64,000 nucleotides of DNA from contig NZ_OCNK01000003.1 of the NCBI RefSeq assembly GCF_900230285.1, forward strand, positions 744,001 through 808,000. Reading direction: 5' to 3'. The position numbers and the translations under genes are program-made. The notes below the pieces were generated by a model. It did not search any database. It was not told the DNA's origin and saw nothing but the letters and a program-made list of their open reading frames with translations. Shown here in pieces: positions 48,958-62,993 of the stretch; position 1 is the first letter of the stretch; each line of letters opens with the position of its first letter. Origin of the DNA: Blastococcus haudaquaticus (GTDB taxonomy: Bacteria > Actinomycetota > Actinomycetes > Mycobacteriales > Geodermatophilaceae).

Positions 48958-50460
48958 TCACGCCGGCCCGACGAGCCCCGCGACGATCTCGGCCGACAGG
49001 GTCACCAGGGGAAGGCCGCCGCCCGGGTGGGCCGATCCGCCGACGAGGAAGAGCCCCGGCACCGGCGACGCGTTCGCCGGGCGGAGGAACGCGGCGCGCG
49101 CCCCGTTGCTCGAGGAGCCGTAGATGGAGCCGCCGACGCTCCCGGTGGCGCGGCCCAGGTCGGCGGGCGTCCGGACCTCGCACCAGCGCAGCCGGGCGCG
49201 GACGTCCAGGCCGCGCCGCGCCAGCACGGCGAGCAGATCGGCCGCGTACCGGTCGGCCAGTCCGGGCTCGTCCCAGTCGACCCCCCGCTCCGGGTCGTGC
49301 CGGGGCGCGTTCACCAGGACGAACCACGACTCGCTGTCCTCGTCGGGACGCAGCGCCGGGTCGTCGGGCGCGCTGACGTAGACCGTCGGGTCGGGGACCG
49401 GCCGGGGCGACCCGCGCAAGGGGCCGGTGCCGAACACCGCGTCGAACTCGGCGTCGTAGTCGTCCGGGAAGAAGACCGTGTGGTGCGCCAGCCCGGGGGT
49501 CCGGCCGCGGAGGGCGAGCAGCAGCACCACGCCCGACAGCGAGGGGGTGGCACTCGCGAGGTCGCGGCGCGGCCCGCGCGTGCGCCGGTCGGGTGGCAGC
49601 AGGTCGCCGTACAGGCCGGACGCGTCGACGCCGGAGACGACGACGTCGGCCGGCAGCCGCTCCCCGCCGTCGAGCTCCACGCCCGCGGCCCGGCCGCCCT
49701 CGACGAGCACCCGCCGGACCCGGCTCGCGGTGCGCAGCACGGCCCCGGCCCTAGTGGCCCGTTCCCCCACCGCCAGGGCGAGCCGGTGCAGCCCGCCGCG
49801 GACGTACCAGGAGCCGAACGCCTGCTCGGCGTACGGCACCGTGGCCAGCACCGCCGGTGCGCGCCGGGGGTCGGAACCGGAGTAGGTCGCGTAGCGGTCG
49901 AGCAGCATCCGCAGCCGGACGTCCGACAGCTGCCGCTCGCCGATCCCGCGCAGCGTCTGCCAGGGCGCGATCGTCGCGACGTCCGCGGGGCTGCGGGCGA
50001 GCCGGGCAAGGGTGGCCGCACCCCGCAGCGGCGTGCGCAGGAACGGCTGCTCGCTGATCCGCCACATCGCCTCGGCACGCGCCATCAGTGCCGTCCACTC
50101 GGCGCCGGAGCCGTTCCCCAGCGCCTGCTCCAGCGCATCGGGGACGGCTCCGGGGGTGCCGGGCACGTCCACCCGGGTGCCGTCGGCGAAGCGGTAGGCG
50201 ACGGCGGGGTCGAGGCGGACGAGGTCGACCTGGTCCTCGAGCCGGGCACCGGTGGCCGCGAACAGGTCGCGGTAGACCTGCGGCATGGTCACCAGGCTCG
50301 GGCCGGTGTCGAACACGTGGCCGTCGCGCTCGTAGCGGCCGAGCTTGCCGCCCACCTGCTCCGCCTGCTCCAGCACGGTCACGGCGTGGCCGGCCGCCGC
50401 CAGTCGTGCGGCCGTCGCGAGCCCGCCCAGGCCTGCACCCACGACCACGACCCGAGCCAC
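48958..50460 (-). CDS. Phytoene-desaturase-family FAD oxidoreductase, CrtI-like
   Basis: A 500-residue flavoprotein. The N-terminal dinucleotide motif is VVVVGAGLGGLATAARLAAA, followed by EQAEQVGGKLGRYERDGHVF and DTGPSLVTMP, which are standard CrtI features. The C-terminal FAD motif GLFLVGGSAHPGGGLPLV is also typical. CrtI members desaturate, oxidise or isomerise carotenoids. No crtE or crtB is nearby, so the exact step is open. GTG 50460 has TACCGT 6 nt upstream and no ribosome-binding site, consistent with a leaderless gene. Confidence 0.88.
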   Translation of the reverse strand: MARVVVVGAGLGGLATAARLAAAGHAVTVLEQAEQVGGKLGRYERDGHVFDTGPSLVTMPQVYRDLFAATGARLEDQVDLVRLDPAVAYRFADGTRVDVPGTPGAVPDALEQALGNGSGAEWTALMARAEAMWRISEQPFLRTPLRGAATLARLARSPADVATIAPWQTLRGIGERQLSDVRLRMLLDRYATYSGSDPRRAPAVLATVPYAEQAFGSWYVRGGLHRLALAVGERATRAGAVLRTASRVRRVLVEGGRAAGVELDGGERLPADVVVSGVDASGLYGDLLPPDRRTRGPRRDLASATPSLSGVVLLLALRGRTPGLAHHTVFFPDDYDAEFDAVFGTGPLRGSPRPVPDPTVYVSAPDDPALRPDEDSESWFVLVNAPRHDPERGVDWDEPGLADRYAADLLAVLARRGLDVRARLRWCEVRTPADLGRATGSVGGSIYGSSSNGARAAFLRPANASPVPGLFLVGGSAHPGGGLPLVTLSAEIVAGLVGPA

Positions 50461-50466
50461 CCCGTC

Positions 50467-50472
50467 ACGGTA
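50467..50472 (-). promoter_or_regulatory. Candidate -10 box of the CrtI-like gene
   Basis: TACCGT on the minus strand, 6 nt before GTG 50460. Confidence 0.5.
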
Positions 50473-50495
50473 GCCGCGGTGCGGCGCGGGCCGCG

Positions 50496-52208
50496 TCAGC
50501 TCGGCGGGGCCGCCGGCACGCCCAGGGCCAGGACCGCGAGGTCGTCGGCCTCGTGCGGGGAGCCGATCACCTGCTGCTCGACGGCGGCGGCGACCGTCGC
50601 GACGGCGAGCTCCGGATCGCCCGACGGTAGCTGCCGGAGCACCCGGGCGAGCCCGTCCTCCCCGAACTGGTCTCCGGCTCGGTCGCGGGCCTCGGTGACG
50701 CCGTCGGTGTAGAGCACCAGCATGGCGCCGCGGGGGAGGACGACGGTCGCCTCGTCGAAGTGCACGCCGGCGTCGATGCCCAGGGGGCGGCCGGGCGCGC
50801 CGACCTCGGTCACCGCACCGTCGGCCGAGCGCAGCAGCGGGAGGGGGTGGCCGGCCACGCTCACCCGGGCCACGTGCCCCCCGTCCGTCGCCTCGAGCAC
50901 GAGACAACAGGCCGTGACGAAGCGCAGCGGACCGCCGCGCTGCTCGCGCAGGAGCGCCGTGTTCACCGCGCACAGCACCTCGCCCGGCTGGCCGGCTGCG
51001 GCCGCAGCCCGCGCGGTGTGCCGGGCCAACGCCGTCACGGCGGCCGCTTCCGCCCCGGTGCCGCACACGTCGGCGATCAGGATCATCCAGCGGCCGTCCG
51101 GCAGTGGCATCACGTCGTAGGTGTCCCCGCCGACCAGGGCCGACCCACCGCCGGGCCGGTAGCGCGCGGCCAGCCCCATGCCCGGGATCGCGGGCAGGTG
51201 CGAGGGCAGCAGGCTGCGCTGCAGGGTGTCGGCCAGCTCGCGGACCTCCGACTCCGCGTGCAGTCGGGCGAGGAACTGCCCGATCTGCCGGCCGGCGTGG
51301 GCCAGCACGTCGAGCAGCTCCGCGGGGACCTCCCGCTGCTCGCGCGAGAAGAGTTCGCAGACGGCGAGCAGGGTGTCACCGCGCATCACGGGGAACGCGA
51401 CGCCGGTGCGGACGGCGTCGAGCCTGGCTGCCGCCGGGCGGAGGAAGCGCGGGTCGGTCCAGAGGTCCTCGACGACGACGGGTTCGCGGTGGAGCCAGGC
51501 CAGGCCGGGCAGGCCCTCCCCGCGCGCGAAGGTGCGGGTCGCGGAGTCGGCCGCCAGTGCCCGCACCGAGGCGCCCGGCGCCTCCCACGTGCGGGTGTGG
51601 ACCAGCCGGCGGCTGTCCTCGTCGGGCTGCCACAGCGTGGCGGCGTCCCAGTCGAGCTCGGTGCAGAGCGTGGGCAGGAGCTGTGCGAAGGCCACGACGG
51701 AGTCCGGCGCCTCGGTCAGGGCAGCCGTGACCCGCAGCGTGGCCGCGAGGTACCGGCTCACCTCGAACTGGCGCTCCAGCAGGATGGTGGTGCTGGCGTC
51801 CCGGAGGACGGCCACCACCAGCGCATCCTGCGATGACCGGCCGCCGGTGGGCTCGAGGCGGGAGAGTGTGAGGTCGATGGGCACCTCGTGTCCCGCGGCG
51901 TGCAGGGCCGGCACCTGCGTCGTCGCGCCGACCAGCTTGCCCTCCCCGGTGGCCCGGTACCGGGAGAACCCCTCGCCGTGGCCCCGCCGCAGACGTTCGG
52001 GCATGAGGACCTGCAGTGGCCGACCCAGGAGGTCCGCCGGGTCGTGGCCCAGGAGCGCGGTGACCGCCGGATTGACGTAGGCGATCCGGCCCTCCGCGTC
52101 GGCGACGATGACGGTGTCGGGCAGGGCCTCCACGAGGGCGCGGGCAGGCAGCGCAGCGTTCAGCATTGGTGCGTTGCTCCCCCCGGGCATCGACAGCACC
52201 GTTGCCAT
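50496..52208 (-). CDS. PAS-GAF-PP2C (SpoIIE/RsbU-type) phosphatase
   Basis: A 570-residue signalling phosphatase. A PAS domain (about 18-140, with ADAEGRIAYVNPAVTALLGHD) is followed by a GAF domain (about 165-315) and a SpoIIE-type PP2C domain (about 330-565, with LVGGDTYDVMPLPDGRW, DVCGTGAEAA, LYTDGVTEARDR and DDLAVLALG). Such proteins dephosphorylate anti-anti-sigma factors. ATG 52208 is preferred; the frame extends to TTG 52271 through a comparatively AT-rich stretch that looks like leader or promoter. No anti-sigma gene is adjacent. Confidence 0.9.
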   Translation of the reverse strand: MATVLSMPGGSNAPMLNAALPARALVEALPDTVIVADAEGRIAYVNPAVTALLGHDPADLLGRPLQVLMPERLRRGHGEGFSRYRATGEGKLVGATTQVPALHAAGHEVPIDLTLSRLEPTGGRSSQDALVVAVLRDASTTILLERQFEVSRYLAATLRVTAALTEAPDSVVAFAQLLPTLCTELDWDAATLWQPDEDSRRLVHTRTWEAPGASVRALAADSATRTFARGEGLPGLAWLHREPVVVEDLWTDPRFLRPAAARLDAVRTGVAFPVMRGDTLLAVCELFSREQREVPAELLDVLAHAGRQIGQFLARLHAESEVRELADTLQRSLLPSHLPAIPGMGLAARYRPGGGSALVGGDTYDVMPLPDGRWMILIADVCGTGAEAAAVTALARHTARAAAAAGQPGEVLCAVNTALLREQRGGPLRFVTACCLVLEATDGGHVARVSVAGHPLPLLRSADGAVTEVGAPGRPLGIDAGVHFDEATVVLPRGAMLVLYTDGVTEARDRAGDQFGEDGLARVLRQLPSGDPELAVATVAAAVEQQVIGSPHEADDLAVLALGVPAAPPS

Positions 52209-52290
52209 GAGGATCGCATACGTCCCGTCATTCTCCGACCACTGACTGTCAATATGTATCCAAGTCGACAATTCGACACGACGACCGACG

Positions 52291-53412
52291 TCAGAAGGCG
52301 TACCGGACGTCCAGCCACGGCGCGTGGGCCGCGATGAGGGACCGCAGCGTGGCCACCCCCGCCCGCTTGACGTCGTTGCGGTACCGGACGTTGTCCTGCC
52401 CGTTGCCGCTGCGCTTGGGCTGCTGGATCTCCGGCCGCCAGAGCAGGTCCTCGGCCTTCGGGTGCCAGCCGAGATTGACCTCGTGCAGGTCGCGGTTGTG
52501 GGTCAGCAGGATGACCTCCGCAGCAGCCTGCGCCTTGGCCGCCGGCGACAGGGTGTCGTCGAGCTGCCGCAGCAACGTCGTCCAGTCCCGCTCCCAGCCG
52601 TCCCGGAGGACGACGGGGGAGAGGTTGAGGTGCACCTCGTAGCCGGCCGACACGAAGTCGTCGACGGCGGCGATCCGCTCGTCGACCCGGCTGGTGCGGA
52701 TGTCCAGCAGTCGCGCGTCGTCGTCGGGCATCACCGAGAACCGGATCCGGGTGCGGCCGGCCGGGTCGAGGTCGAGCAGCTGCCGGTTGACGTACTTGGT
52801 GGCGAAGGACGCCTTCGCCGTCGGCAGGCCGCGGAACGTGGCGATCAGGTCGGCCACGTTGTCGCTGACCATGGCGTCGACCGAGCAGTCGCTGTTCTCG
52901 CCGATGTCGTAGACCCAGCTGACCGGGTCGCACTGGTCTGGCGCGGGCTTCACGCCCTGGCGGGCCACGTGCCGGCGCACGTAGCCGGTGATCTGGTCGA
53001 TGTTGGTGAAGACCGTGATCGGGTTGGCGTAGCCCTTGCGCCGGGGCACGTAGCAGTAGGCGCACGCCATGGCGCAACCGTTCGCGGTGGACGGGGCGAT
53101 CCAGTTCGCCGACCGCTCGTTGGGGCGGGCCGCCAGCGACTTCTTCACCCCGAGCACGAGGGTCTCGGTCTTGACCCGGACCCAGCGGTCGACGTTGCCC
53201 GCGTTGCCGTGCAGATCCGGGATCTGCCAGTGCGAGGGGACCTCGACGACCTCCGCGTCCGGGAAGCGGGCGATCACCTGACGTCCGCGGGAGGAGGAGG
53301 CGGCAGCCGGCTCGGCGTAGATCTGCCGGACGCGCAGCATCCGGTCATCGACCGGCGCCTCGCTCACCGGGTCCGGGTCGTCGAAGAGGGTGAGCGCGTC
53401 GCCGGCTGTCAC
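52291..53412 (-). CDS. Spore photoproduct lyase-like radical SAM protein
   Basis: A 373-residue radical SAM enzyme of the SPL family, which reverses UV-made thymine dimers of the spore-photoproduct type. The cluster motif CAMACAYC (C113, C117, C120) has the CX3CX2C spacing. C161, 41 residues later, is close to where Bacillus SPL carries its hydrogen-donor cysteine (about 44 residues after its cluster). The SPL-like VPRRKGYANPITVFTN and KYVNRQLL are present. GTG 53412 was chosen. It is divergent from the zinc dehydrogenase gene across 138 bp. A role in UV or desiccation resistance is inferred. Confidence 0.85.
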   Translation of the reverse strand: MTAGDALTLFDDPDPVSEAPVDDRMLRVRQIYAEPAAASSSRGRQVIARFPDAEVVEVPSHWQIPDLHGNAGNVDRWVRVKTETLVLGVKKSLAARPNERSANWIAPSTANGCAMACAYCYVPRRKGYANPITVFTNIDQITGYVRRHVARQGVKPAPDQCDPVSWVYDIGENSDCSVDAMVSDNVADLIATFRGLPTAKASFATKYVNRQLLDLDPAGRTRIRFSVMPDDDARLLDIRTSRVDERIAAVDDFVSAGYEVHLNLSPVVLRDGWERDWTTLLRQLDDTLSPAAKAQAAAEVILLTHNRDLHEVNLGWHPKAEDLLWRPEIQQPKRSGNGQDNVRYRNDVKRAGVATLRSLIAAHAPWLDVRYAF

Positions 53413-53550
53413 ACCGGTTCCAGCGCCTCGGGGAGGGGCGGCATTCCGGTCCACCCGCGCGTCGGACCTGGGGTTGCGGTGGTCGCAGTCCGGGCACCCC
53501 GTCGTCGAGCGCCGTCCGGTCCGGACAGGCGCACCACGACGGGAGACCCA

Positions 53551-54738
53551 TTGAAGGCAGTGACCTGGCACGGACAGCGGGACGTGCGCGTCGAGGAGGT
53601 CCCCGACCCGTTCGTGCAGGAGCCGACGGACGCCGTCATCCGCGTGACGACGAGCAACATCTGCGGGTCGGACCTGCACCTCTACGAGCCGCTGTCGCCG
53701 TTCATGGGCGTGGGCGACATCCTCGGCCACGAGAACATGGGGCAGGTCGTGGAGGTCGGCTCGGCGGTCGGCGACCTGAAGGTGGGGGACCGCGTCTCGA
53801 TCCCCTTCCAGATCTCCTGCGGGCACTGCTGGATGTGCCAGCAGCAGCTCTACACGCAGTGCGAGACGACGCAGGTGCGCGAGCACGGCACCGGCGCTGC
53901 CCTGTTCGGGTTCTCCAAGCTCTACGGCGAGGTCCCGGGCGGCCAGGCGGAGTACCTGCGGGTGCCCCAGGCCCAGTTCACCCACATCAAGTTGCCGGAG
54001 GGGCCGGCCGACGACCGGTTCGCCTACCTCTCCGACATCCTGCCGACCGCCTGGCAGGGCGTGGAGTACGCGGCCGTGCCCGAGGGCGGCACGCTCGTCG
54101 TGCTGGGCCTCGGCCCGATCGGTGACTTCGCCTGCCGCATCGCCAAGCACAAGGGGTTCCGGGTCATCGGCGTGGACCTCGTCCCGGAACGGCTGCACCG
54201 AGCGCGGCTGCAGGGCGTGGAGGTCGTCGACCTGCGCGAGCACGAGAAGGACCTGGGCGACGCCATCCGGGACATGACCGGCGGTCGCGGCCCCGACTCG
54301 GTGCTGGACGCCGTCGGCATGGAGGCGCACGGATCGCCGGCGACGTCCTTCGTCCAGAAGATGGCCGGGCTGCTGCCCAAGGCGATCTCCGCGCCGCTGA
54401 TGGAGCACGCGGGCGTCGACCGGCTCAACGCCCTCTACTCGGCGATCGACATCGTGCGGCGCGGCGGCACGATCTCACTGTCCGGCGTCTACGGCGGGGC
54501 GGCCGACCCGCTGCCCCTGATGACGATGTTCGACAAGCAGATCCAGCTGCGGATGGGTCAGTGCAACATCAAGCGCTGGGTGCCGGACATCATGCCGCTG
54601 CTCACCGACGACGACCCGCTCGGCGTGGACGACTTCGCGACGCACCGGGTGCCCCTGTCGCGGGCGCCGGAGATGTACCGGAAGTTCCAGCAGAAGGAGG
54701 ACGGCGCCGTGAAGGTGCAGCTCAAGCCGGAGCTGTGA
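53551..54738 (+). CDS. Zinc-dependent alcohol/formaldehyde dehydrogenase-like protein
   Basis: A 395-residue medium-chain dehydrogenase. The catalytic zinc ligands are C38 and H61 (in ICGSDLH and LGHENMG). The structural zinc site is SCGHCWMCQQQLYTQC, and the NAD motif is VLGLGPIGDFACRIA. Close motif order to glutathione-independent formaldehyde dehydrogenases is noted, including the GGYG-like GVYGGAADPLP. TTG 53551 has GGGAG 5 nt upstream. The substrate may be formaldehyde, threonine or another alcohol. It is followed by a decayed pxpA fragment. Confidence 0.88.
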   Translation: MKAVTWHGQRDVRVEEVPDPFVQEPTDAVIRVTTSNICGSDLHLYEPLSPFMGVGDILGHENMGQVVEVGSAVGDLKVGDRVSIPFQISCGHCWMCQQQLYTQCETTQVREHGTGAALFGFSKLYGEVPGGQAEYLRVPQAQFTHIKLPEGPADDRFAYLSDILPTAWQGVEYAAVPEGGTLVVLGLGPIGDFACRIAKHKGFRVIGVDLVPERLHRARLQGVEVVDLREHEKDLGDAIRDMTGGRGPDSVLDAVGMEAHGSPATSFVQKMAGLLPKAISAPLMEHAGVDRLNALYSAIDIVRRGGTISLSGVYGGAADPLPLMTMFDKQIQLRMGQCNIKRWVPDIMPLLTDDDPLGVDDFATHRVPLSRAPEMYRKFQQKEDGAVKVQLKPEL

Positions 54739-54762
54739 CCGACCGGGTGCTGGACTGCCCGC

Positions 54763-54965
54763 GTGGCTGAGGTGCGCGTCCGGGGTCGCGGTGGGGGCGC
54801 AGCTCTCCTACCGCGACCTCGCCGGCTTCGGCGCTGGTTCATCGACGTGGAGCCCGGTGAGCCGGCCGACGACGTGCTCCACCAGCTCGCCGCGCTCGAC
54901 GGCATCGCCCGGTCCGTCGGCACCCGGGTCTCCTGGGTGAAGCCGCACGGTGCCCTCTACGGGGT
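54763..54965 (+). pseudogene. pxpA: Truncated, frameshifted pxpA (LamB/YcsF) relic
   Basis: Remnant of 5-oxoprolinase subunit A. One frame reads GVAVGAQLSYRDLAGFG (54782-54832). Another frame continues with RWFIDVEPGE, a helical segment and VGTRVSWVKPHGALYG (to about 54965), matching successive family motifs. Inserting one C near 54832 restores a single frame, so one base was lost. The N-terminal third and the whole C-terminal half are missing; the 3' end runs into the opposite-strand GAF-ANTAR gene. pxpB and pxpC are not in the window. Confidence 0.75.
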
Positions 54966-55787
54966 GACCGTCGGCCCCTTCGCGACCGGGGGCGCCTGGT
55001 CCTCGGTCGGCTGGTCCTCGGTCGGCTGGTCCTCGGTCGGCTGGTCCTCGGTCGGCTGGTCCCCGGGCGGGAGCAGGTCCTGCGCACGCATCGGGCCGGA
55101 CAGCAGGTCCGCCGCGACGTCCTCGATCGTCCGGCCGCTGCCGAAGGCCGCCGCCCGCATGAGCTGCAGGGCGTCCGGGGCGTCGATGCCCAGCTCGACG
55201 CCCACCTTGCCCATGGCCTCCCACACGGCCGCGCGGCGCCGCGGTGCCGGTCCCTGGAGCCATTCGGGGCCCTCGGTGGGCGACCACGACGACCAGACGG
55301 CGGCCTCGCTGAGCACCGAGCTCACCAGCTCACCGACGGCCATGGCCTCGAAGACGTCGAGGCGGGTCACCTCGCCGGACCGACGGAAGTACAGGTCGAT
55401 CGCCCCGGCACCCGCCAGCGCCGGCTGCAGCGGCAGGGCCACCACGGCCCGGTAGGAGGTGGCGCCGACCAGCAGGTCGGTGAAGACCGGCCACCGGTGG
55501 CGCAGGTCCTCCGCGACGGCGAACACCGGCTGCCGCGTCTCCTGCGCCGTCATGCACGGTCCGGCTCCGACGGTGAACTGCAGTCGCTCGGCGACGGCGG
55601 CCTCCTCCGAGCTCGCGCCGAGCGGCACCCGCTGCTGCGCGCCGTCGAGGAACGAGAGGCCGGCGCCGGCGACCTGCAGCGTCCGGGCGCAGGCGCGCGC
55701 CAGCCGCACCGGCAGCAGCTCCGGGCCCCGGAGCGCGGGGTCGTCCTCGTCGTCGAGCGCCGCCTCGAACCGCCCGGCGATGGTCAT
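54957..55787 (-). CDS. GAF-ANTAR regulator with C-terminal PTEDQ repeats
   Basis: A 276-residue cytoplasmic protein with an N-terminal GAF sensor domain (about 25-165, ending near YFRRSGEVTRLDVFEAMAVG) and a C-terminal ANTAR-like RNA-binding helical domain (about 190-238, with AAVWEAMGKVGVELGIDAPD and a following helix AADLL). ANTAR proteins act by antitermination at dual hairpins. After it comes a disordered tail containing four PTEDQ-type pentapeptide repeats. It is the last gene of a four-gene minus-strand operon starting at 58669. No target hairpin pair was found nearby. Confidence 0.82.
   Translation of the reverse strand: MTIAGRFEAALDDEDDPALRGPELLPVRLARACARTLQVAGAGLSFLDGAQQRVPLGASSEEAAVAERLQFTVGAGPCMTAQETRQPVFAVAEDLRHRWPVFTDLLVGATSYRAVVALPLQPALAGAGAIDLYFRRSGEVTRLDVFEAMAVGELVSSVLSEAAVWSSWSPTEGPEWLQGPAPRRRAAVWEAMGKVGVELGIDAPDALQLMRAAAFGSGRTIEDVAADLLSGPMRAQDLLPPGDQPTEDQPTEDQPTEDQPTEDQAPPVAKGPTVTP
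55000..55059. repeat. Four perfect 15-bp tandem repeats
   Basis: Four identical 15-bp units (55000-55014, 55015-55029, 55030-55044, 55045-55059) near the 3' end of the GAF-ANTAR gene, encoding a Pro-Thr-Glu-Asp-Gln repeat on the minus strand. A multiple of three keeps the frame, so copy number could vary between strains. Confidence 0.92.
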
Positions 55788-55831
55788 GCCCGAGTGTCCG
55801 CCCGCGCGGTCGGCAGCACACCCCGGGGCGG

Positions 55832-56347
55832 TCAGGCCTCCAGGGCGCGGGCGACGGCGGCCACGTTGGACCGGCCCTTCCCGTAGTCGACGAGCGTCGT
55901 CGCGACGACCGGGCGGCTGGAGACGACGGCCTCCGGCGCGGACGGGTCGCCGGTGAGCTGCACCGAGACCTCCTCGCCGAAGCTCTTCCACGTCGTCGTC
56001 GTGCGGGCGCGGTAGCGGCCTGCGGCCACGTCCGCCTCGCGGATCTCGGCCGGGAGCCCGCGCAGCGCAGCCATGATCCGGTCGGGCAGGTCCGGGCCGG
56101 AGCGCACCGCGACGGTCCGGTCCTGGCGCGGGCCGCGCGGGGCGCCCTTCGGGGCCCGGTCGCTCACCGCGTCCACCGTCCCCAGCACGGCGGCCATCAC
56201 ACCCCCGAAGACCAGCCCCGCGCCGACGCCGGCGAGCAGTCCGGCGCGCACCGAGCCCAGCACGAGTCCGGTGGCCAGACCCGCGAGCGCACCGAACGGG
56301 ACGGCGGTGGCGACGAACAGCAGCAGACCTGTCCGGAGTGAACGCAC
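55832..56347 (-). CDS. Membrane protein of unknown function with soluble C-terminal domain
   Basis: A 171-residue protein with two hydrophobic segments near the start (about 5-27 and 33-58) and a soluble C-terminal domain of about 85 residues. That domain contains RYRARTTTTWKSFGEEVSVQ, SSRPVVATTLVDYGKGRSNV and a final helix. This layout suggests a small beta-sheet domain. The family was not recognised. GTG 56347 has GAGG 6 nt upstream, and the gene begins 10 bp after the preceding membrane-protein stop, within the phosphatase operon. Confidence 0.75.
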   Translation of the reverse strand: MRSLRTGLLLFVATAVPFGALAGLATGLVLGSVRAGLLAGVGAGLVFGGVMAAVLGTVDAVSDRAPKGAPRGPRQDRTVAVRSGPDLPDRIMAALRGLPAEIREADVAAGRYRARTTTTWKSFGEEVSVQLTGDPSAPEAVVSSRPVVATTLVDYGKGRSNVAAVARALEA

Positions 56348-56357
56348 CGGTGCCTCG

Positions 56358-57467
56358 TCACTCAGCCGTGGGGCCGCGGTCGGGCCGGTAGCTGTAGGCC
56401 GCCTGGCGGACGGCGTCGTCGCTCTCCAACCCGGCGCCGAGCGCGCCGCCCACGGTGGCCAGCGAGCTGATCAGCCAGGCCAGCTCGAGGTAGTCCGACA
56501 CGCCCGCCGCGTGTCCCAGCCCGCCGGTGAACAGCGCCGGCACCACCAGCAGCAGCGATCCGGCCAGGGCCAGCAGGAACAGCACCGCGTAGAGGGTCAG
56601 CACGCCGATGAGGACGGTCGCTCCGGTGGCCAGGTTGAACAGCGTCACCTGCTTCCTGACCCGCCGGCTGTGCGGGCGCTCCCAGAGCTCGGCACCGACC
56701 ACGAGGGTGGCGGCGGTGGCGACCACCGACCCGACGGCGACCACGGTGAGCCGCAGCCAGCCGAAGTTGTCCGCGAGCCGCCAGATGTCGGGGGTGATGA
56801 GGGCGAAGACGCCGGCGGCGATCGCGGCGGTCAGTGCCCGGGTCAGCCGGGCCGCCAGCCGCCACGGCCGGTTCGCGCGCACCATCCCGACCAGCAGCCG
56901 CAGGTTCCCCGTCAGCACGCGGGCGGTGAAGCGGACGCCCTCGGTCGTGTCGGACGGATCGGTCGCCAGCTCCCGGAGGCGGCGACCGACCAGCGCGCGG
57001 TCGTCGGGGTCGTCGCCGTCGTCGTCGCCCAGCAGGGTGTGGACCAGGCCGGTCGCCGCCTCGAGCGCCCGCCGCCCCCGGCCGACGGCGCCCAGCGCGG
57101 GCACCGACAGGACGGCGACGCCGTGGACCGGGCTGGCATGCCCCACGACCGGCCTCCGGGAGACCTCGAGCGGCACGTCGGTGAGGCAGAGGACGAGGTC
57201 CCAGTCCTCGGTGAGGAGGCGTCGCCGGGCCGCGTCGACCAGCTCGTCGTCGTCGAATGGTGGCTGCACCAGCCCGTCGACGACCGGCCGCACGTCCCAG
57301 GTGACGTCGGGGTGTCGCGCTGCCAGCGCCTGCGTCAGCTCACCGCTCAGGGACGCCGCGACGTCGGCGGGCGCCCCGGGAGCGGCGACGAGGCCGAGGA
57401 CGACGACGACAGGTGAGGGCTCGGCCTCCGGTTGCTGCTGGCGGGAGGCGGCGTGCTGCTCGGTCAC
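56358..57467 (-). CDS. Polytopic membrane protein of unknown function
   Basis: A 369-residue protein with an N-terminal soluble half (about 20-175) containing LVLCLTDVPLEVSRRPVVGH and VHGVAVLSVPALGA, and a C-terminal half with about five hydrophobic segments (about 205-350). It ends with RQAAYSYRPDRG. The family was not recognised with confidence. Its GTG start shares GTGA with the stop of the PP2C phosphatase, so they are translationally coupled. It is plausibly a membrane partner or target of that phosphatase. Confidence 0.78.
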   Translation of the reverse strand: MTEQHAASRQQQPEAEPSPVVVVLGLVAAPGAPADVAASLSGELTQALAARHPDVTWDVRPVVDGLVQPPFDDDELVDAARRRLLTEDWDLVLCLTDVPLEVSRRPVVGHASPVHGVAVLSVPALGAVGRGRRALEAATGLVHTLLGDDDGDDPDDRALVGRRLRELATDPSDTTEGVRFTARVLTGNLRLLVGMVRANRPWRLAARLTRALTAAIAAGVFALITPDIWRLADNFGWLRLTVVAVGSVVATAATLVVGAELWERPHSRRVRKQVTLFNLATGATVLIGVLTLYAVLFLLALAGSLLLVVPALFTGGLGHAAGVSDYLELAWLISSLATVGGALGAGLESDDAVRQAAYSYRPDRGPTAE

Positions 57468-58669
57468 AGGACGAGCTGGTCCTCGCGTCCGGTGCGCCAC
57501 TCGACGACGACGATGCTGGCGTCGTCCTGCAGCCGGCCTGCCTGGTGGTCCAGGACGCTGCGCATGAGCCGGCGCAGGGTCTCCGGGGGCGGGTCGCCGG
57601 CCGCCTCCGCGCGGACGACGAAGTCGGCGAGGCGTTCCTCGCCGAAGAACTTCCCATCGGGGGACCGCGCCTCCACGATGCCGTCGGTGTAGAACACGAC
57701 CCGGTCGCCGGGCTCCAGCTGGACCGAGCACTCGTGCGCCGGTCGGTGCTGCAGTCCCAGGGGGAGGGACGACGGGCACGGGTGGGCCGGTAGCAGCGTG
57801 TGGTCGCGGATGACGAGCGGCGCGGGGTGCCCGGCGTTGACCCAGGTGAGCCGGCCGCTGTCGAGGTCGAGCTGGGCCAGCACGGCCGTGGCGAACCGGC
57901 TCGCCGGGAACTGCTCCGCGATCACCCCGTTCACCAGGGCCGACACCTCGGGCAGGCCCAGGCCCTCGCGCCGGCCGTTGCGGTAGGCGCCCACGGCGGC
58001 GGAGGCGAGCAGCGCCGCGGGCAGCCCGTGGCCCACTGCGTCGAGGACCATCAGCTCGGCGATCGGCCCGTTAACGGCGTAGTCGAAGGTGTCCCCGCCG
58101 ATCTCGTAGGACGGTTCGAGGGCACCGGTGATGACGATGCGCTCGCTGCTGAAGGTCAGCGGGGGCAGCAGGTCCCACTGGATCTCCGCGGCGAGCGCCA
58201 TCGGGCGGCTCCTGCGCAGGCGGGCGAAGACGTCGCTGTAGGCGTCGCGCGTCACCGTCAGCTCGGCGACCAGCGAGGTGAAGGGCCGGGCGTGCTCCAC
58301 GTCGGCCGCGGTGGGCTCGTGCGGGTAGACCAGTTCGACGACGCCGGCCCGCTCCGATCCGTCCAGCAGCGGCAGCCACAGCCGCGCCTGGCCGTCGTGC
58401 AGCGGTGAGCGGGCGATCGTCACCGTGCGGAAGGCCTCCCCGGCGATCGACGCGTCGATGGGCTGCGGGGTGCGGTCCGGCACCCCCTCGCCGAGCACCG
58501 GCATCAGGTGGTGCTGCTCGTAGTCGCTCAGGTAGACCACGGCGGTGGTCGCGCCCAGCATGCGGGCGTGGTCGGCGACCATGCTGCCGAGCTGATCGGC
58601 CGGCAGGTGGTGGGAGGCGTGCAGGAGCGACCGCAGCGCTTCCGCTTGCGCGGGCATCCGGTCGCTCAT
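57464..58669 (-). CDS. GAF-like/PP2C (SpoIIE-type) phosphatase
   Basis: A 401-residue signalling phosphatase. The N-terminal 170 residues look like a GAF domain (MLGATTAVVYLSDYEQHHLM, RLWLPLLDGSERAGVVELVY). The C-terminal PP2C domain (about 180-395) contains IGGDTFDYAVNG, DAVGHGLPAALLAS, FYTDGIVEARSPDG and DDASIVVVEW, so the metal-binding aspartates are present. ATG 58669 was chosen. It is the first gene of a four-gene operon with two membrane proteins and a GAF-ANTAR protein. It likely controls an anti-anti-sigma factor not encoded here. Confidence 0.9.
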   Translation of the reverse strand: MSDRMPAQAEALRSLLHASHHLPADQLGSMVADHARMLGATTAVVYLSDYEQHHLMPVLGEGVPDRTPQPIDASIAGEAFRTVTIARSPLHDGQARLWLPLLDGSERAGVVELVYPHEPTAADVEHARPFTSLVAELTVTRDAYSDVFARLRRSRPMALAAEIQWDLLPPLTFSSERIVITGALEPSYEIGGDTFDYAVNGPIAELMVLDAVGHGLPAALLASAAVGAYRNGRREGLGLPEVSALVNGVIAEQFPASRFATAVLAQLDLDSGRLTWVNAGHPAPLVIRDHTLLPAHPCPSSLPLGLQHRPAHECSVQLEPGDRVVFYTDGIVEARSPDGKFFGEERLADFVVRAEAAGDPPPETLRRLMRSVLDHQAGRLQDDASIVVVEWRTGREDQLVL

Positions 58670-58752
58670 CCGTCCCAGCCTTCCAGCCAGGCCGCGGGAA
58701 GGCGAATGCGCACCCGGCAACCTGGCTGGTCAGGCTGGCGTCCCACCGTCGA

Positions 58753-59562
58753 TCACGGCACGGCGGAGCGCACCGGGAGCACCGCGGGACCCGACGGTCC
58801 GTGGACCACCTGGGCGCGGGCCCCGTAGTGGGTGCTCAGGGCCTGCGCGGTCAGCACGTCGGCCGGTGTCCCCTCCGCGACGACCCGGCCGTCGGACAGC
58901 AGGGCGAGCCGGTCGGCGTACTGGCCGGCCAGGGTGAGGTCGTGCAGCGTGCTCACCACGGTGAGCCCGTCCTGCCGGCGCAGGAGGTCGACCAGGTCGA
59001 GCACCTGCTGGGCGTGCCCGAGGTCGAGGGCCGCCGTCGGCTCGTCGAGGAACAGCACCCGGGGCTGCTGGGCCAGCGCGCGGGCGAGCACCGCGCGCTG
59101 CTGCTCCCCGCCCGACAGCGTGCTCAGCCGGCGCTCGGCGAGGGCGCCGAGCTCCAGCCGGTCCATGACGTCGGCGACCACCTCCCGGTCCACGGCGCGC
59201 GGGGCAGCCAGCAGTGCCCGGTGCGGAGTGCGCCCGAGGGTCACGTAGTCGCGGGTGAGCACGCCGTCGGGCAGGACGGGGGCCTGCGGTGCGTAGGCCA
59301 TGGACCGGGCGCGCTCCCGGCGCCGCATCCCGCTGGTCGGGACGCCGTCGACGCGCACCTGCCCCTCGTGCGGGTGGAACCCGAGCACCGAGCGCAGCAG
59401 CGTGGACTTGCCGGAGCCGTTGGGCCCGATGACGGCCAGCCAGCCGCCCGGCTCGACGGTCAGCCGCACGGAGTCGAGGACCGGGGTGCGGCCGTATCCG
59501 GCGCTCAGGCCGACGACCTCGACCCGCGCGCCGCCCGGGCTCGTCGGTCCGCCCGCGCTCAT
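58753..59562 (-). CDS. btuD: Cobalamin ABC transporter ATPase BtuD
   Basis: A 269-residue ATPase of the FecE/BtuD type. Walker A is GPNGSGKST, the signature is LSGGEQQRAVLARALA, Walker B is VLFLDEPTAALDL, and the H-loop follows in TLHDLTLAGQYADR. Its ATG shares ATGA with the permease stop. Specificity for vitamin B12 rather than haem or siderophore is inferred from the cobalamin riboswitch upstream of the operon. Confidence 0.92.
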   Translation of the reverse strand: MSAGGPTSPGGARVEVVGLSAGYGRTPVLDSVRLTVEPGGWLAVIGPNGSGKSTLLRSVLGFHPHEGQVRVDGVPTSGMRRRERARSMAYAPQAPVLPDGVLTRDYVTLGRTPHRALLAAPRAVDREVVADVMDRLELGALAERRLSTLSGGEQQRAVLARALAQQPRVLFLDEPTAALDLGHAQQVLDLVDLLRRQDGLTVVSTLHDLTLAGQYADRLALLSDGRVVAEGTPADVLTAQALSTHYGARAQVVHGPSGPAVLPVRSAVP

Positions 59563-60641
59563 CGCCGCCGCGCCCCGGCCCACAGCAGGCCGGCGAAGAA
59601 GGGTGCCCCGATGAACGCCGTGACGACGCCGATCGGCAGCTCGGCGGGGGACAGCACGACCCGCGCCACGAGGTCGGCGAGGACCAGGAACGCGCCGCCG
59701 ACCAGCAGCGACATCGGCAGCACGCGCGCGTGCGAGCCGCCGACGAGGCGGCGGACGATGTGCGGGACCACCAGTCCGACGAAGCCGATCAGGCCGCTCA
59801 CGGCGACCGCGGCGGCCGTGGCGAGCGAGGCGGCGAGGATGACCACCAGGCGCAGCCGGCCGGGGTGCACGCCCAGCGAGCTGGCCTCGTCGTCGCCGAC
59901 GGCCAGGACGTCCAGCGCGCGTCCGCAGAGGAGCAGCACGGTGCCCGACACGACGAGGTAGGGCAGCACGAGCACGACGTCGGACCATTGTGAGTTGCCC
60001 AGCTGCCCGAGCAGCCAGCCGTAGATCTGCCGCAGGTCGTCGGTGTTCGCCTGCTGGACGAGGGTCTGTCCGGCGGCGAGGAAGGCGGCGACCGCGACCC
60101 CGGCCAGCAACAGGGTCGGGGTGTGCGAGCCGCCGGCGACCGTGCCCAGCGCGATGGCGCAGCCGACGCCCACCAGGGCGCCCACGAACGCCGCCAGCGG
60201 GACGATGCCGATGGGTCCGACCGACTGCACGGGGGACCACGCGATGACGACCGTGGCACCGAGCCCCGCACCGGCCGCGGCGCCCAGCAGGTACGGGTCG
60301 GCCAGCGGGTTGCGGAAGACGCCCTGGTAGGCGGCGCCGGAGACGGCGAGCCCGGCGCCGACCAGGGAGGCGAGCAGCACCCGGGGGAGACGGAGCTCCA
60401 GGAGGACGGCGGCCCGCGTCCCCTCCAGGCCGCCGGGGACCGAGCCGCCGAACGGGGCGACGAGGCGGTCGAGCAGGGTGACGACGACGGCGCCCGGAGG
60501 GAGCGGCAGGGCGCCCACCCAGACCCCCGCCAGCAGGGCGAGGACGAGGGCCAGCGCCGCGCCGGTCAGCGCCGGCCACGACCTCCGGCGGGTCGCCGGC
60601 GCGGTCGCCGGGCCCGCGGTGCCGGGAGCCGTCGTGGTCAT
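59559..60641 (-). CDS. btuC: Cobalamin ABC transporter permease BtuC
   Basis: A 360-residue FecCD/BtuC-type permease with about ten hydrophobic segments. Family motifs include LRLPRVLLASLVGAGLAVSG, YQGVFRNPLADPYLLG and GLVVPHIVRRLVGGSH, the last being the coupling loop that meets the ATPase. An Ala/Thr/Pro-rich N-terminal tail precedes the first helix. ATG 60641 has GAGG 8 nt upstream. The gene lies 13 bp after btuF and overlaps btuD by ATGA. Confidence 0.93.
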   Translation of the reverse strand: MTTTAPGTAGPATAPATRRRSWPALTGAALALVLALLAGVWVGALPLPPGAVVVTLLDRLVAPFGGSVPGGLEGTRAAVLLELRLPRVLLASLVGAGLAVSGAAYQGVFRNPLADPYLLGAAAGAGLGATVVIAWSPVQSVGPIGIVPLAAFVGALVGVGCAIALGTVAGGSHTPTLLLAGVAVAAFLAAGQTLVQQANTDDLRQIYGWLLGQLGNSQWSDVVLVLPYLVVSGTVLLLCGRALDVLAVGDDEASSLGVHPGRLRLVVILAASLATAAAVAVSGLIGFVGLVVPHIVRRLVGGSHARVLPMSLLVGGAFLVLADLVARVVLSPAELPIGVVTAFIGAPFFAGLLWAGARRR

Positions 60642-60654
60642 GGATCCGCCGTCC

Positions 60655-61587
60655 TCAGCCCTGCAGGGTCTCGGCGACGGCCTCGGCGAAGTCCGCGACC
60701 CGTGGGCCCCAGCGCGATGCGATGTCGTCGTCGGCCTCCAGGATCCGCCCCTCCTGCACGGCGGGCAGGGTGTCGAAGGCGGGGCGCTGGGCGACGACCT
60801 CGGCGGACTGCTCGCAGCACTTGGTGTCGGCGAGCACGATCAGGTCCGGTGCCTGCCCGGCGATGTACTCCGCGGACAGCTGCGGGTAGCCGCCGGAGGC
60901 GTCGGGCGCGCCGTCGGCGATGTTCTCCAGGCCGAACTGCGTGTAGATGCTGCCGATGAAGGTGCTGCTGGCGGCGGAGAAGAAGCTCGGGTCGAGCTCG
61001 TGGTACACCCGCAGCCCCTCGGCGTCCGCGGGTACCGAGTCGATCGCCGCGGCGATCCGGTCCTGCATGTCGGCGACGACCTCGTCGGCCTCCTCGGCGT
61101 GCCCGGTCGCGTCCCCCAGGGTCTCCAGCTGCGCGTAGCTGTCGTCGAGCGTCTCGGCCGCGGGGAGCAGCAGCGTCGGGACCTCGAGGGCGTCGAGGGC
61201 GTCGACGATGCCGTTGAGGTCGTCGCTGAGCACCACCAGGTCCGGGGCGTACTCGGCGATCGCCTCGGCGTTCGGCGTGAACGCCGACAGGTCCGTGGTG
61301 GGCGCGTCCTCGGGGAAGTTCGAGTTGTCGTCGACGGCCTCGACCTGGTCACCCGCGCCGATGGCGAAGAGCATCTCGGTGGCGGTGGCCGACATCGACA
61401 CGATGGTCTCGGGCTGCTGCTCGAGCGTGAGGTCGCCGTCGGCACCGGTCACCGTGACCGGGAAGGCGTCGTTCGAGGAGCCGGCGGCGGGGTCGTCGGA
61501 ACCCGACGGGTCGCCACCGCAGGCGGTGAGCCCGAGCGCCAGCGCCAGGGGGACGGCGAGCAGCGGGCGGGGGAGGGAACGGGGCAC
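60655..61587 (-). CDS. btuF: Cobalamin-binding lipoprotein BtuF
   Basis: A 310-residue substrate-binding lipoprotein of the periplasmic-binding-protein-2/BtuF family. The signal peptide ends [13 protein letters not shown], with the lipobox Cys near residue 23, and an acidic/Ser linker follows. The family motif is [20 protein letters not shown], and a second lobe begins around [13 protein letters not shown] pair (TKCCEQS) is unusual. GTG 61587 places the signal peptide correctly; earlier in-frame starts would add a non-signal extension over the riboswitch. It is the first gene of btuFCD. Confidence 0.9.
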
Positions 61588-61687
61588 GGGGGAAGGCCTT
61601 CGCGAGAGGCGGCAGTGCCGCCCATGAGCTGCCCCGTGCTGTCCGGCGGTGCCCGATGCGCGACCCCTGCCGCGAGGGTCGGGAACA

Positions 61688-61806
61688 TGGCGCACGGCAG
61701 GCGATCTGGCTCAGGCCCTCGGAGGACCATCACAGTTGCGGGACAGCGCCGGGTTCTCACCGGCTTCGCTGCGCGTGCGTCGCCGACGAGTCGGCAGCTG
61801 GAATCT
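61688..61806 (-). ncRNA. Cobalamin riboswitch upstream of btuFCD
   Basis: Reading the minus strand, the conserved core GCCGGTGAGAACCCGGC and then GCTGTCCCGCAACTGTGA is found at 61729-61768; this is the B12-box region of the cobalamin riboswitch. The 3' part, GAGCCAGATCGCCTGCCGT (61693-61712), matches the closing element. Between it and the btuF start (61587) lie a weak hairpin (61662-61680) and a 6-bp-stem hairpin (61608-61622), the second about 20 nt before the start codon and suited to masking it. B12 should repress btuFCD. Outer boundaries are approximate. Confidence 0.92.
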
Positions 61807-61820
61807 ACCAGCGGAACCGG

Positions 61821-62993
61821 TCAGGCCCGTGCGGCGAGGACCGCGGAGTAGACCTCGACGGTCTGCTGCGCGATGGCCGGCCAGCCGAACTCCGCGAGCA
61901 CCCGCTCGCGACCGGCCGCGCCCATCGCGGCCGCCCGGGCAGGATCGGCGAGCAGTTCGGTCATGCGCTCGGCCAGCCCCCGCTCGAAGGCGGCGACGTC
62001 GTCGGGGTGGTAGGGCACCAGCAGACCCGTCCGGCCGTCGTCGACGACCTCGGGGATGCCGCCGACGGCGCTGGCGACGACCGCGGTCCCACAGGCCGCC
62101 GCCTCGAGGTTGACGATGCCGAGGGGCTCGTACACCGACGGGACGACGAAGACCGTGGCACCGGTGATCAGCGGCACCAGCTGGTCGCGCGGCAGCATCG
62201 CCTCGATCCAGACCACCCCGCTGCGCCGTGCCTGCAGCTCGGCGACGGCGTCGGCCACCTGCTGCCGCTCGCCCGGGGTGTCCGGGGCGCCCGCGCACAG
62301 GACGAGGCCGTACTGCTCGGGCAGCTGGTCGGCGGCGCGCAGCAGGTGCATCACGCCCTTCTGCCGGGTGATCCGACCGACGAACAGCGCATAGGGGCGG
62401 TCGGGGTCGACGCCCAGGCCGCGGACGACGTCGGGTGCCTCGACGGGTCGGTAGGCCTCGGCGTCCACCCCGTTGCCGACGACGTGCACCCGGGCGGGGT
62501 CGAGGTCGGGATAGGCGTCGAGCACGTCGGTGCGCATCCCGTGGCTGACGGCGACGACCGCGTCCGCGGCGAGGTAGGCGCTGCGCTCCACCCAGGAGGA
62601 GAGCCGGTAGCCGCCGCCGAGCTGATCGGCCTTCCACGGCCGGCGTGGCTCCAGCGAGTGGGCGGTGACCACGTGCGGAACGCCGTGCACGAGGGCGGCC
62701 AGCATGCCGGCGCCGTTGGCGTACCAGGTGTGGCTGTGCACCAGGTCGACGTCGCCGAGGGCCGCGGCGATCTCGACGTCGACGCCGACGGCCTGGAGTG
62801 CGCCGTTGGCGTCCCGCAGCCCGGCGGGGACGGCGTGCGCGGTCGCGTCGACGCGCGGCTGGCCGAAGCAGTGGACGTCGATCTCGGGCCCCGCCGACAG
62901 GGACCGCAGGGCGGCGACGAGGTGCTCGATGTGCACCCCGGCTCCGCCGTAGACGTCCGGCGGCCACTCCCGGGTCACGATGCCGATGCGCAC
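61821..62993 (-). CDS. glgM: GT4 glycosyltransferase GlgM / actinobacterial glycogen synthase
   Basis: A 390-residue retaining glycosyltransferase (GT4). The N-terminal motif is [20 protein letters not shown], with [14 protein letters not shown] for the acceptor side. The C-terminal nucleotide site includes [12 protein letters not shown] and the E-x7-E element [20 protein letters not shown]. In mycobacteria the equivalent enzyme forms maltose-1-phosphate from ADP-glucose for alpha-glucan synthesis. GTG 62993 has TAGGGT 6 nt upstream, so it is probably leaderless. It is divergent from glgC, whose product makes ADP-glucose, the donor. Confidence 0.92.

Follow-up and report, generated by a model that had tools for sequence, protein, structure and literature searches.

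Do four closely spaced genes of Blastococcus haudaquaticus form a signalling circuit of their own, and what kind of protein is the unassigned membrane protein whose gene overlaps that of the phosphatase? The genes, here called g1 to g4, lie in a stretch of 64,000 nucleotides (positions 744,001 to 808,000 of the 950-kb contig NZ_OCNK01000003.1, assembly GCF_900230285.1), which we call the window. A preliminary description of the window had grouped them as a four-gene module that might be a new stress-signalling circuit. We identify g2 as the main find: it represents a widespread family without a name, which has a metzincin-like domain that is apparently dead as judged from structural models and alignments. 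As that description had it, the four genes share a single strand (minus), with gaps of -4, 10 and 44 bases between g1 and g2, g2 and g3, and g3 and g4. All four have a third-position GC of 0.93-0.96, as expected of real coding genes in this GC-rich genome. The features that concern us first are these:

57464..58669, minus strand: g1, 401 amino acids, ATG start; GAF-like domain and SpoIIE/PP2C serine phosphatase
56358..57467, minus strand: g2, 369 amino acids, GTG start; predicted membrane-anchored pseudo-metzincin of a family without a name
55832..56347, minus strand: g3, 171 amino acids, GTG start; small membrane protein
54957..55787, minus strand: g4, 276 amino acids, ATG start; GAF-ANTAR regulator
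57464..57467, minus strand: GTGA overlap of g1 stop and g2 start; likely translational coupling
56952..57425, minus strand: g2 residues 15-172; predicted cytosolic, metzincin-like domain without a zinc motif
56361..56948, minus strand: g2 residues 174-369; helical membrane part and conserved C-terminal tail LExDxxVRxAAY

A membrane protein family with a predicted metzincin-like domain

No Pfam or NCBIfam model matches g2 above any cut-off, in agreement with its earlier description as a polytopic membrane protein without assignment. The same is true of g3. We aligned g2 with its relatives in a broad set of 25 sequences that reaches down to 26% identity (A1) and in a narrower set (A2). A1 shows an N-terminal domain, an arginine-rich stretch (GMVRANRPW), hydrophobic helices and a conserved C-terminal tail.

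An AlphaFold2 model of g2, made with 35 sequences, has a mean predicted local distance difference test (pLDDT) score of 73.9; averaged by block, residues 21-150 score 72-90. VIA-align, which rescored the candidates proposed by Foldseek, superposes the modelled N-terminal domain on archaemetzincin 2x7m with a Z score of 15.9 (147 residues, 3.0 A, 22% identity). The list opens with four archaemetzincins (Z 13.2-15.9), after which come other metzincins with Z scores no higher than about 12. Of the 50 rows shown, 49 can be assigned to metzincins from their titles or from general knowledge; the exception, 6o38, is titled as a chaperone-substrate complex.

Profile comparison was made with hhalign against an M54 profile built from 18 of 20 fetched actinobacterial M54 loci (L244-L263). 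A1 matches this profile with a score of 28.2 (probability 22%), colinearly over about 100 columns that end just before the zinc helix and include the stretch TD..L...V.G.A.....AV.S...L immediately ahead of it. A 49-row set of g2 sequences scores 23.05 (probability 6%), against a maximum of 15.46 for 100 column-shuffled decoys and 10.6 for the reversed profile. With the narrower alignment A2 the match failed (probability 0.2%). The preliminary description had left g2 to a remote-homology search; the outcome is a metzincin-like N-terminal domain by model, accompanied by a weak M54 profile match.

The domain thus resembles archaemetzincin (peptidase family M54, AmzA; PF07998) in predicted fold and in a weak colinear match. 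Unlike archaemetzincin, g2 lacks HEXXHXXGXXHC and the Cys4 site, gives no Pfam hit (PF07998 included) and is fused to membrane helices. HExxH is found in the active-site helix columns (residues 124-160) of none of 49 non-redundant rows. Anywhere in the protein it occurs in 2 of 191 full-length hits; these lie in two fetched stretches that come from one genome and read identically. The window g2 holds a single cysteine, at position 94, and therefore has no Cys4 zinc site of the form CX4CXMX17CXXC. We interpret the N-terminal domain as a metzincin that has degenerated, with archaemetzincin as its closest counterpart in modelled structure, and do not assign it to M54. As a metzincin it is apparently dead, a prediction from the missing motifs.

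CarG of Myxococcus xanthus is described as a proteolytically inactive archaemetzincin relative that has lost the catalytic glutamate of HEXXH and is part of a transcriptional regulator (PMC3427221). Compared with CarG as described there, g2 lacks the entire HEXXH motif and is predicted to be membrane-bound. The main text of an article on pseudopeptidases mentions neither M54 nor archaemetzincin (PMC11266112). The titles and abstract openings returned by our literature searches, whose coverage takes in few subscription journals, contain no description of the g2 family or of a chaperone island in Actinobacteria. A sample of 296 Actinomycetota genomes yields M54 archaemetzincin matches in 33, and three of these 33 (G126, G137 and G350) also hold distant g2 relatives.

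The membrane anchor of g2 comprises about four predicted helices. Mean net charge is +4.7 and +1.5 on the stretches predicted to lie inside and -0.3 and -0.6 on the outer loops, and this charge bias beside the helices places the N-terminal domain in the cytosol in our prediction. Modelled alone, the membrane part has a pLDDT of 76.8; compared with PDB folds it gives nothing convincing (best Foldseek E 1.4, best Z 4.3), which does not show that its fold is new. A sequence search of the PDB with the g2 profile returns a best hit of only E 0.08.

Other assignments were considered and rejected. A methyltransferase match is confined to the window g2 (E 0.08), and matches to the major facilitator superfamily (one of 25 members, E 6e-5) and to DUF2267 (two of 25) are likewise not family-wide. 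Among viral contigs, 81 pattern matches turned up and none is a relative.

Overlap of the phosphatase and membrane protein genes

The preliminary description had the phosphatase translationally coupled to the membrane protein, and comparison with relatives makes this likely. In a named collection of loci, all 14 with g1 upstream of g2 have, in frame with g2, a GTG at -4 from the g1 stop, as in the window. A second in-frame GTG lies at -37, inside g1, in 12 of these loci (those read for it). Either codon may be the start of g2, and both overlap g1. The loci come from Blastococcus and Geodermatophilus, together with one record labelled Bacillus that resembles them. The 4-base overlap persists where g2 is 70-87% identical to the window protein. 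This conserved GTGA is the firmest support for g1 and g2 belonging together, and on the strength of the compared sequences we regard the link between them as real.

The record labelled Bacillus (L135, Bacillus sp. AZ43, UNVERIFIED_ORG) carries a Geodermatophilaceae-type g2 (87% identity) and matching neighbours; its label looks wrong.

Conservation in Geodermatophilaceae

We searched 112 genomes of the family and matched g2 in 50 of them, remnants included. We compared 49 full-length copies, of which 38, the window copy among them, are at least 65% identical to the window g2 and are treated here as orthologues. Adjacency was counted among the matches listed, from which 53 g2 rows (49 full, four remnants), 62 g1 rows and 76 g4 rows were used. 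The g1 rows omitted are more distant paralogues; compared by eye with the g2 places, none adjoins g2. The named-collection loci and the sampled genomes overlap and are not independent sets.

The GAF-ANTAR gene proves to be a regular neighbour, as had been proposed: g4 lies directly downstream of g2 in 30 of the 38 orthologues; only in the window does g3 separate the two. Directly upstream, g1 is present in 15 and missing in 23. Both genes flank g2 in 14 orthologues and neither does in seven. The 11 divergent g2 copies adjoin neither g1 nor g4. In the genus itself, g2 occurs in 5 of 16 genomes and g4 (E 1e-40 or better) in 12 of 16. The adjacency of g1 and g2, and of g2 and g4, thus appears to recur in relatives more than chance would allow.

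The four-gene module itself did not survive this comparison. Relatives of g3 occur in eight of the 112 family genomes, this one included, and adjoin g2 solely here; a conserved module of four genes is rejected, as in none of the remaining 111 was g3 seen to adjoin g2. Conservation of gene neighbourhood therefore holds for the g1-g2 and g2-g4 pairs, and fails for g3.

The loci in which g2 has decayed are informative about the proposed self-contained circuit. Remnants of g2 precede an intact-looking g4 in four genomes, G476 (which also retains g1), G487, G482 and G474. Two others, G473 and G001, have g4 after g1, and tblastn finds no g2 there. That g1 and g4 can persist where g2 has been lost speaks against a circuit in which all are obligatory, as does the number of orthologues without an adjoining g1. 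The fetched loci L266, L267 and L268 show g2 decaying beside an intact-looking g4 (and g1 in L266), a repeated loss of the same gene.

The phosphatase and the GAF-ANTAR regulator

The PP2C domain of g1 is complete (PF07228, E 6e-49). Ahead of it lies a weak GAF_2 match (E 0.0015, below its cut-off). We identified the motifs GGD at 191, DAVGHG at 210, YTDG at 327 and DD at 382, which we take to be the metal ligands. The best PDB sequence match is the Rv1364c chain (E 1.2e-13). In domain, catalytic motifs and the layout of sensor, linker and phosphatase, g1 is like the partner-switch phosphatases RsbU, SpoIIE and Rv1364c. Unlike those systems, it has no adjacent STAS or RsbW gene and overlaps g2 instead. 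In RsbU, a bound partner drives the phosphatase by way of a coiled-coil linker, a layout that has also been proposed for other sensor-phosphatases (PMC12143880).

The preliminary description had called the combination of phosphatase, membrane proteins and antiterminator unusual for the lack of an anti-sigma factor. This lack is real at the locus and does not extend to the genome, where 20 HATPase_c_2 matches (a model that may also score on ordinary histidine kinases) and 10 STAS_2 matches exceed their cut-offs, every one of them outside the window. The genome holds 19 SpoIIE matches, two of them inside the window. Because such domains are scattered across this genome, a phosphatase without a neighbouring anti-sigma gene is unremarkable here.

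For g4, both domain matches fall below their gathering scores: ANTAR at E 1.6e-5 (25.0 bits against a gathering score of 27.3) and GAF_2 at E 1.7e-4. A sequence search of the PDB gives no credible match.

Stress genes near g2 relatives

In the phylum, we identified g2 relatives in 30 of 396 sampled genomes at E 0.001, a count that includes the window's own genome and some weak hits. The named collection holds at least 590 g2 places, of which the best 80 were kept. Of those kept, 46 come from outside Geodermatophilaceae, and 17 of the 46 carry genes of the DnaK, GrpE, DnaJ, CbpM or ClpB type no more than 5 kb away, compared with 1 of 20 controls (Fisher p 0.007). The controls are 20 hand-placed stretches of 16-18 kb in g2-holding genomes, and the test stretches measure about 4-18 kb. 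Reference proteins for the scan came from L216, outside the counted loci, with E cut-offs of 1e-10 for the 46 loci and 1e-12 for the phylum sample and controls. The 17 linked loci include five from Gordonia and five from Nocardioides or Aeromicrobium, so they represent fewer than 17 independent events. For several ClpB-type matches the score is like that of the control one, and these may be ClpC-type rather than ClpB.

Other neighbours recur beside g2: a zinc alcohol dehydrogenase, a DJ-1/PfpI protein, a protein resembling a cyclic nucleotide monophosphate (cNMP)-thioredoxin reductase, and an ABM-type monooxygenase-like protein (labelled from its sequence, with no Pfam hit). Part of the wider g2 family thus appears to be associated with stress genes, which lends moderate support to the proposed stress role; the module claim fails in part.

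Some g2 relatives are mobile. We identified 26 plasmid records with a g2 match and fetched nine stretches, one of which has no annotation. Four of the nine (L216, L219, L240 and L241) carry blocks of chaperone and protease genes near the g2 relative. On a conjugative plasmid of Arthrobacter sp. FW306-05-C, the g2 relative is accompanied by dnaK-grpE-J-domain-cbpM-clpB, an HtrA-like protease, a heat-induced YflT general stress protein, an MscS channel and FtsH. A plasmid of Nocardia farcinica and plasmids from two strains of Rhodococcus qingshengii carry related blocks in the vicinity of g2 relatives, one of them with TnsA-, TniB- and TniQ-like genes by Pfam (TnsA slightly under its cut-off).

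Seventeen loci (L190-L205 and L212) from Microbacterium, Brevibacterium, Gordonia, Rhodococcus, Kocuria, Actinomyces and other genera encode g2 proteins that are 82-100% identical to one another (median about 97% over 136 pairs) and 46-48% identical to the window g2. Such near identity across genera suggests recent transfer of g2 between them.

The plasmid blocks may be the actinobacterial equivalent of the stress-tolerance island of proteobacteria (tLST), for which clpK, sHsp20, hdeD and kefB are named (PMC8407380). Some plasmid g2 relatives likewise lie within blocks of chaperone and protease genes; the gene set and host phylum differ, and the main text of that source does not contain the word Actinobacteria. 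The window locus is without chaperone genes on a mobile block and in this differs from a tLST.

Proposed role and alternatives

The reading we tentatively prefer, which may well prove wrong, is that of a stress-response locus rather than a fixed four-gene circuit, with g1 as an input to an unlinked partner switch and g2 as a membrane stress adaptor. Stress would be sensed by the GAF-like domain of g1, which would dephosphorylate a STAS protein encoded elsewhere and so release a stress sigma factor bound by a kinase of the RsbW type. A partner switch elsewhere is conceivable because STAS and RsbW-type domains are present in the genome. Coupling would keep g2 production in step with g1. We propose that g2 binds rather than cuts, holding client or partner proteins at the membrane as a pseudoprotease adaptor or scaffold in membrane protein quality control; this would explain why some relatives travel with DnaK, ClpB, HtrA and FtsH genes. 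The g4 product may add RNA-level control of the same response, and g3 would be a lineage-specific insertion.

Several observations weigh against this proposal. No g1 substrate, g2 partner or g4 RNA target was found (the last by an Rfam scan). Neither g1 nor g4 lies beside 18 of the 49 full g2 copies (the 11 divergent ones and seven orthologues). Both g1 and g4 outlive g2 in G001, G473 and G476, and g4 does so in G487, G482 and G474; since g2 is lost or decayed while its neighbours survive, none of the three strictly requires the others. The C-terminal tail of g2, which is predicted to lie inside, is acidic (-1.45). In the phylum sample, from which L095, L096 and L099-L101 were dropped when g2 was not refound in those stretches, 7 of 26 loci outside the family are chaperone-linked against 1 of 20 controls (p 0.11), and the statistics of both sets are uncorrected for relatedness. 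The controls also matched HtrA-like (one), FtsH-like (two), thioredoxin-reductase-like (one) and alcohol dehydrogenase (one) proteins. Four of the nine plasmid stretches (from Kocuria, R. pyridinivorans, R. erythropolis and P. equi) show no chaperone block, and phmmer with nine island proteins finds no chaperone gene in the window. As for the fold, Foldseek itself is weak, ranking 2x7m first at E 0.022 with unrelated folds from rank 11, and the M54 probabilities are low for A1, the 49-row set and A2 alike.

These last figures would also suit an unrelated alpha/beta domain that merely resembles the N-terminal subdomain of metzincins, as would a model built from 35 sequences with block means of 72-90. 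The Z score of 15.9, the archaemetzincins at the head of the list, the metzincins that fill it and a colinear match that includes the stretch just ahead of the zinc helix make this very unlikely. A closer tie between the first two genes is conceivable, in which g2 senses envelope stress and its cytosolic pseudo-metzincin domain switches the phosphatase on or off, as RsbT does for RsbU. The invariant overlap in 14 loci suggests matched amounts of the two proteins, and the bound partner that drives RsbU through its linker provides a model (PMC12143880). Under such direct regulation, the persistence of g1 without an intact g2 in three genomes must be explained. The 23 orthologues without an adjoining g1 also speak against it, and no g1-type phosphatase lies near g2 among the 46 named-collection loci outside the family. 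We consider direct regulation rather improbable.

The genes may instead be ordinary neighbours in a general stress neighbourhood kept by descent, with g1, g2 and g4 tied by co-transcription only. The members of this neighbourhood (a zinc alcohol dehydrogenase, a photoproduct lyase, two SpoIIE phosphatases and the GAF-ANTAR gene) and its wider synteny, including an ABC transporter common to many family loci, agree with such a view, and loss of one gene leaves the rest intact. Mere descent accounts less readily for an exact 4-base overlap kept at 70-87% g2 identity and for a similar alcohol dehydrogenase adjoining g2 in distant actinobacteria (L076, L086); we regard this explanation as somewhat unlikely.

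For an actinobacterial membrane protein family that is nameless in the searched libraries, a fold and a topology can now be predicted, and a role proposed that can be tested. If the role is correct, membrane protein quality control would gain a new element: an inactive metzincin on the cytosolic face of a bacterial membrane, encoded near ClpB, DnaK, HtrA and FtsH genes. To our knowledge, membrane-bound pseudoproteases are known mainly from animals. The plasmid copies point to a mobile stress-tolerance island in actinobacteria, carried by environmental and clinical isolates. A bolder version, to which we give only a small chance, is that g2 founds a new bacterial stress class of dead metzincins tethered to the membrane, which would gauge damage to membranes or proteins and, where a PP2C phosphatase is coupled to them as here, signal through it into a partner switch; the family would have spread between actinobacteria within Tn7-like heat-shock islands on plasmids, which would be to actinobacteria what the stress-tolerance locus is to proteobacteria.

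Wider neighbourhood of the locus

Further features lie in or beside the four genes:

55000..55059, minus strand: four exact 15-base repeats in g4, encoding a PTEDQ-repeat tail
54763-54957, plus strand: LamB/YcsF gene fragment (PF03746, E 5e-8, 42 residues only)
53461..54735, plus strand: zinc alcohol dehydrogenase frame (PF08240, E 7e-23)
52294..53475, minus strand: spore photoproduct lyase-like radical SAM frame (PF20903, E 3e-35)
50496-52271, minus strand: second SpoIIE phosphatase, of PAS-GAF type, adjoining the photoproduct lyase-like gene

An Rfam scan of positions 50000-62500 gives no match over the gathering score. The coding strand of 54501-62000 contains no match to consensus strings for actinobacterial stress sigma promoters.

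Several of these neighbours recur with g2. The radical SAM photoproduct lyase-like gene lies near g2 in many family loci, and an upstream ABC transporter (periplasmic-binding protein, FecCD permease and ATPase) is common to many of them. The window alcohol dehydrogenase matches the one that adjoins g2 in L076 with 628 bits; an alcohol dehydrogenase also adjoins g2 in L086 and lies near it in Blastococcus loci. The LamB/YcsF fragment just past the end of g4 looks like the remnant of a gene.

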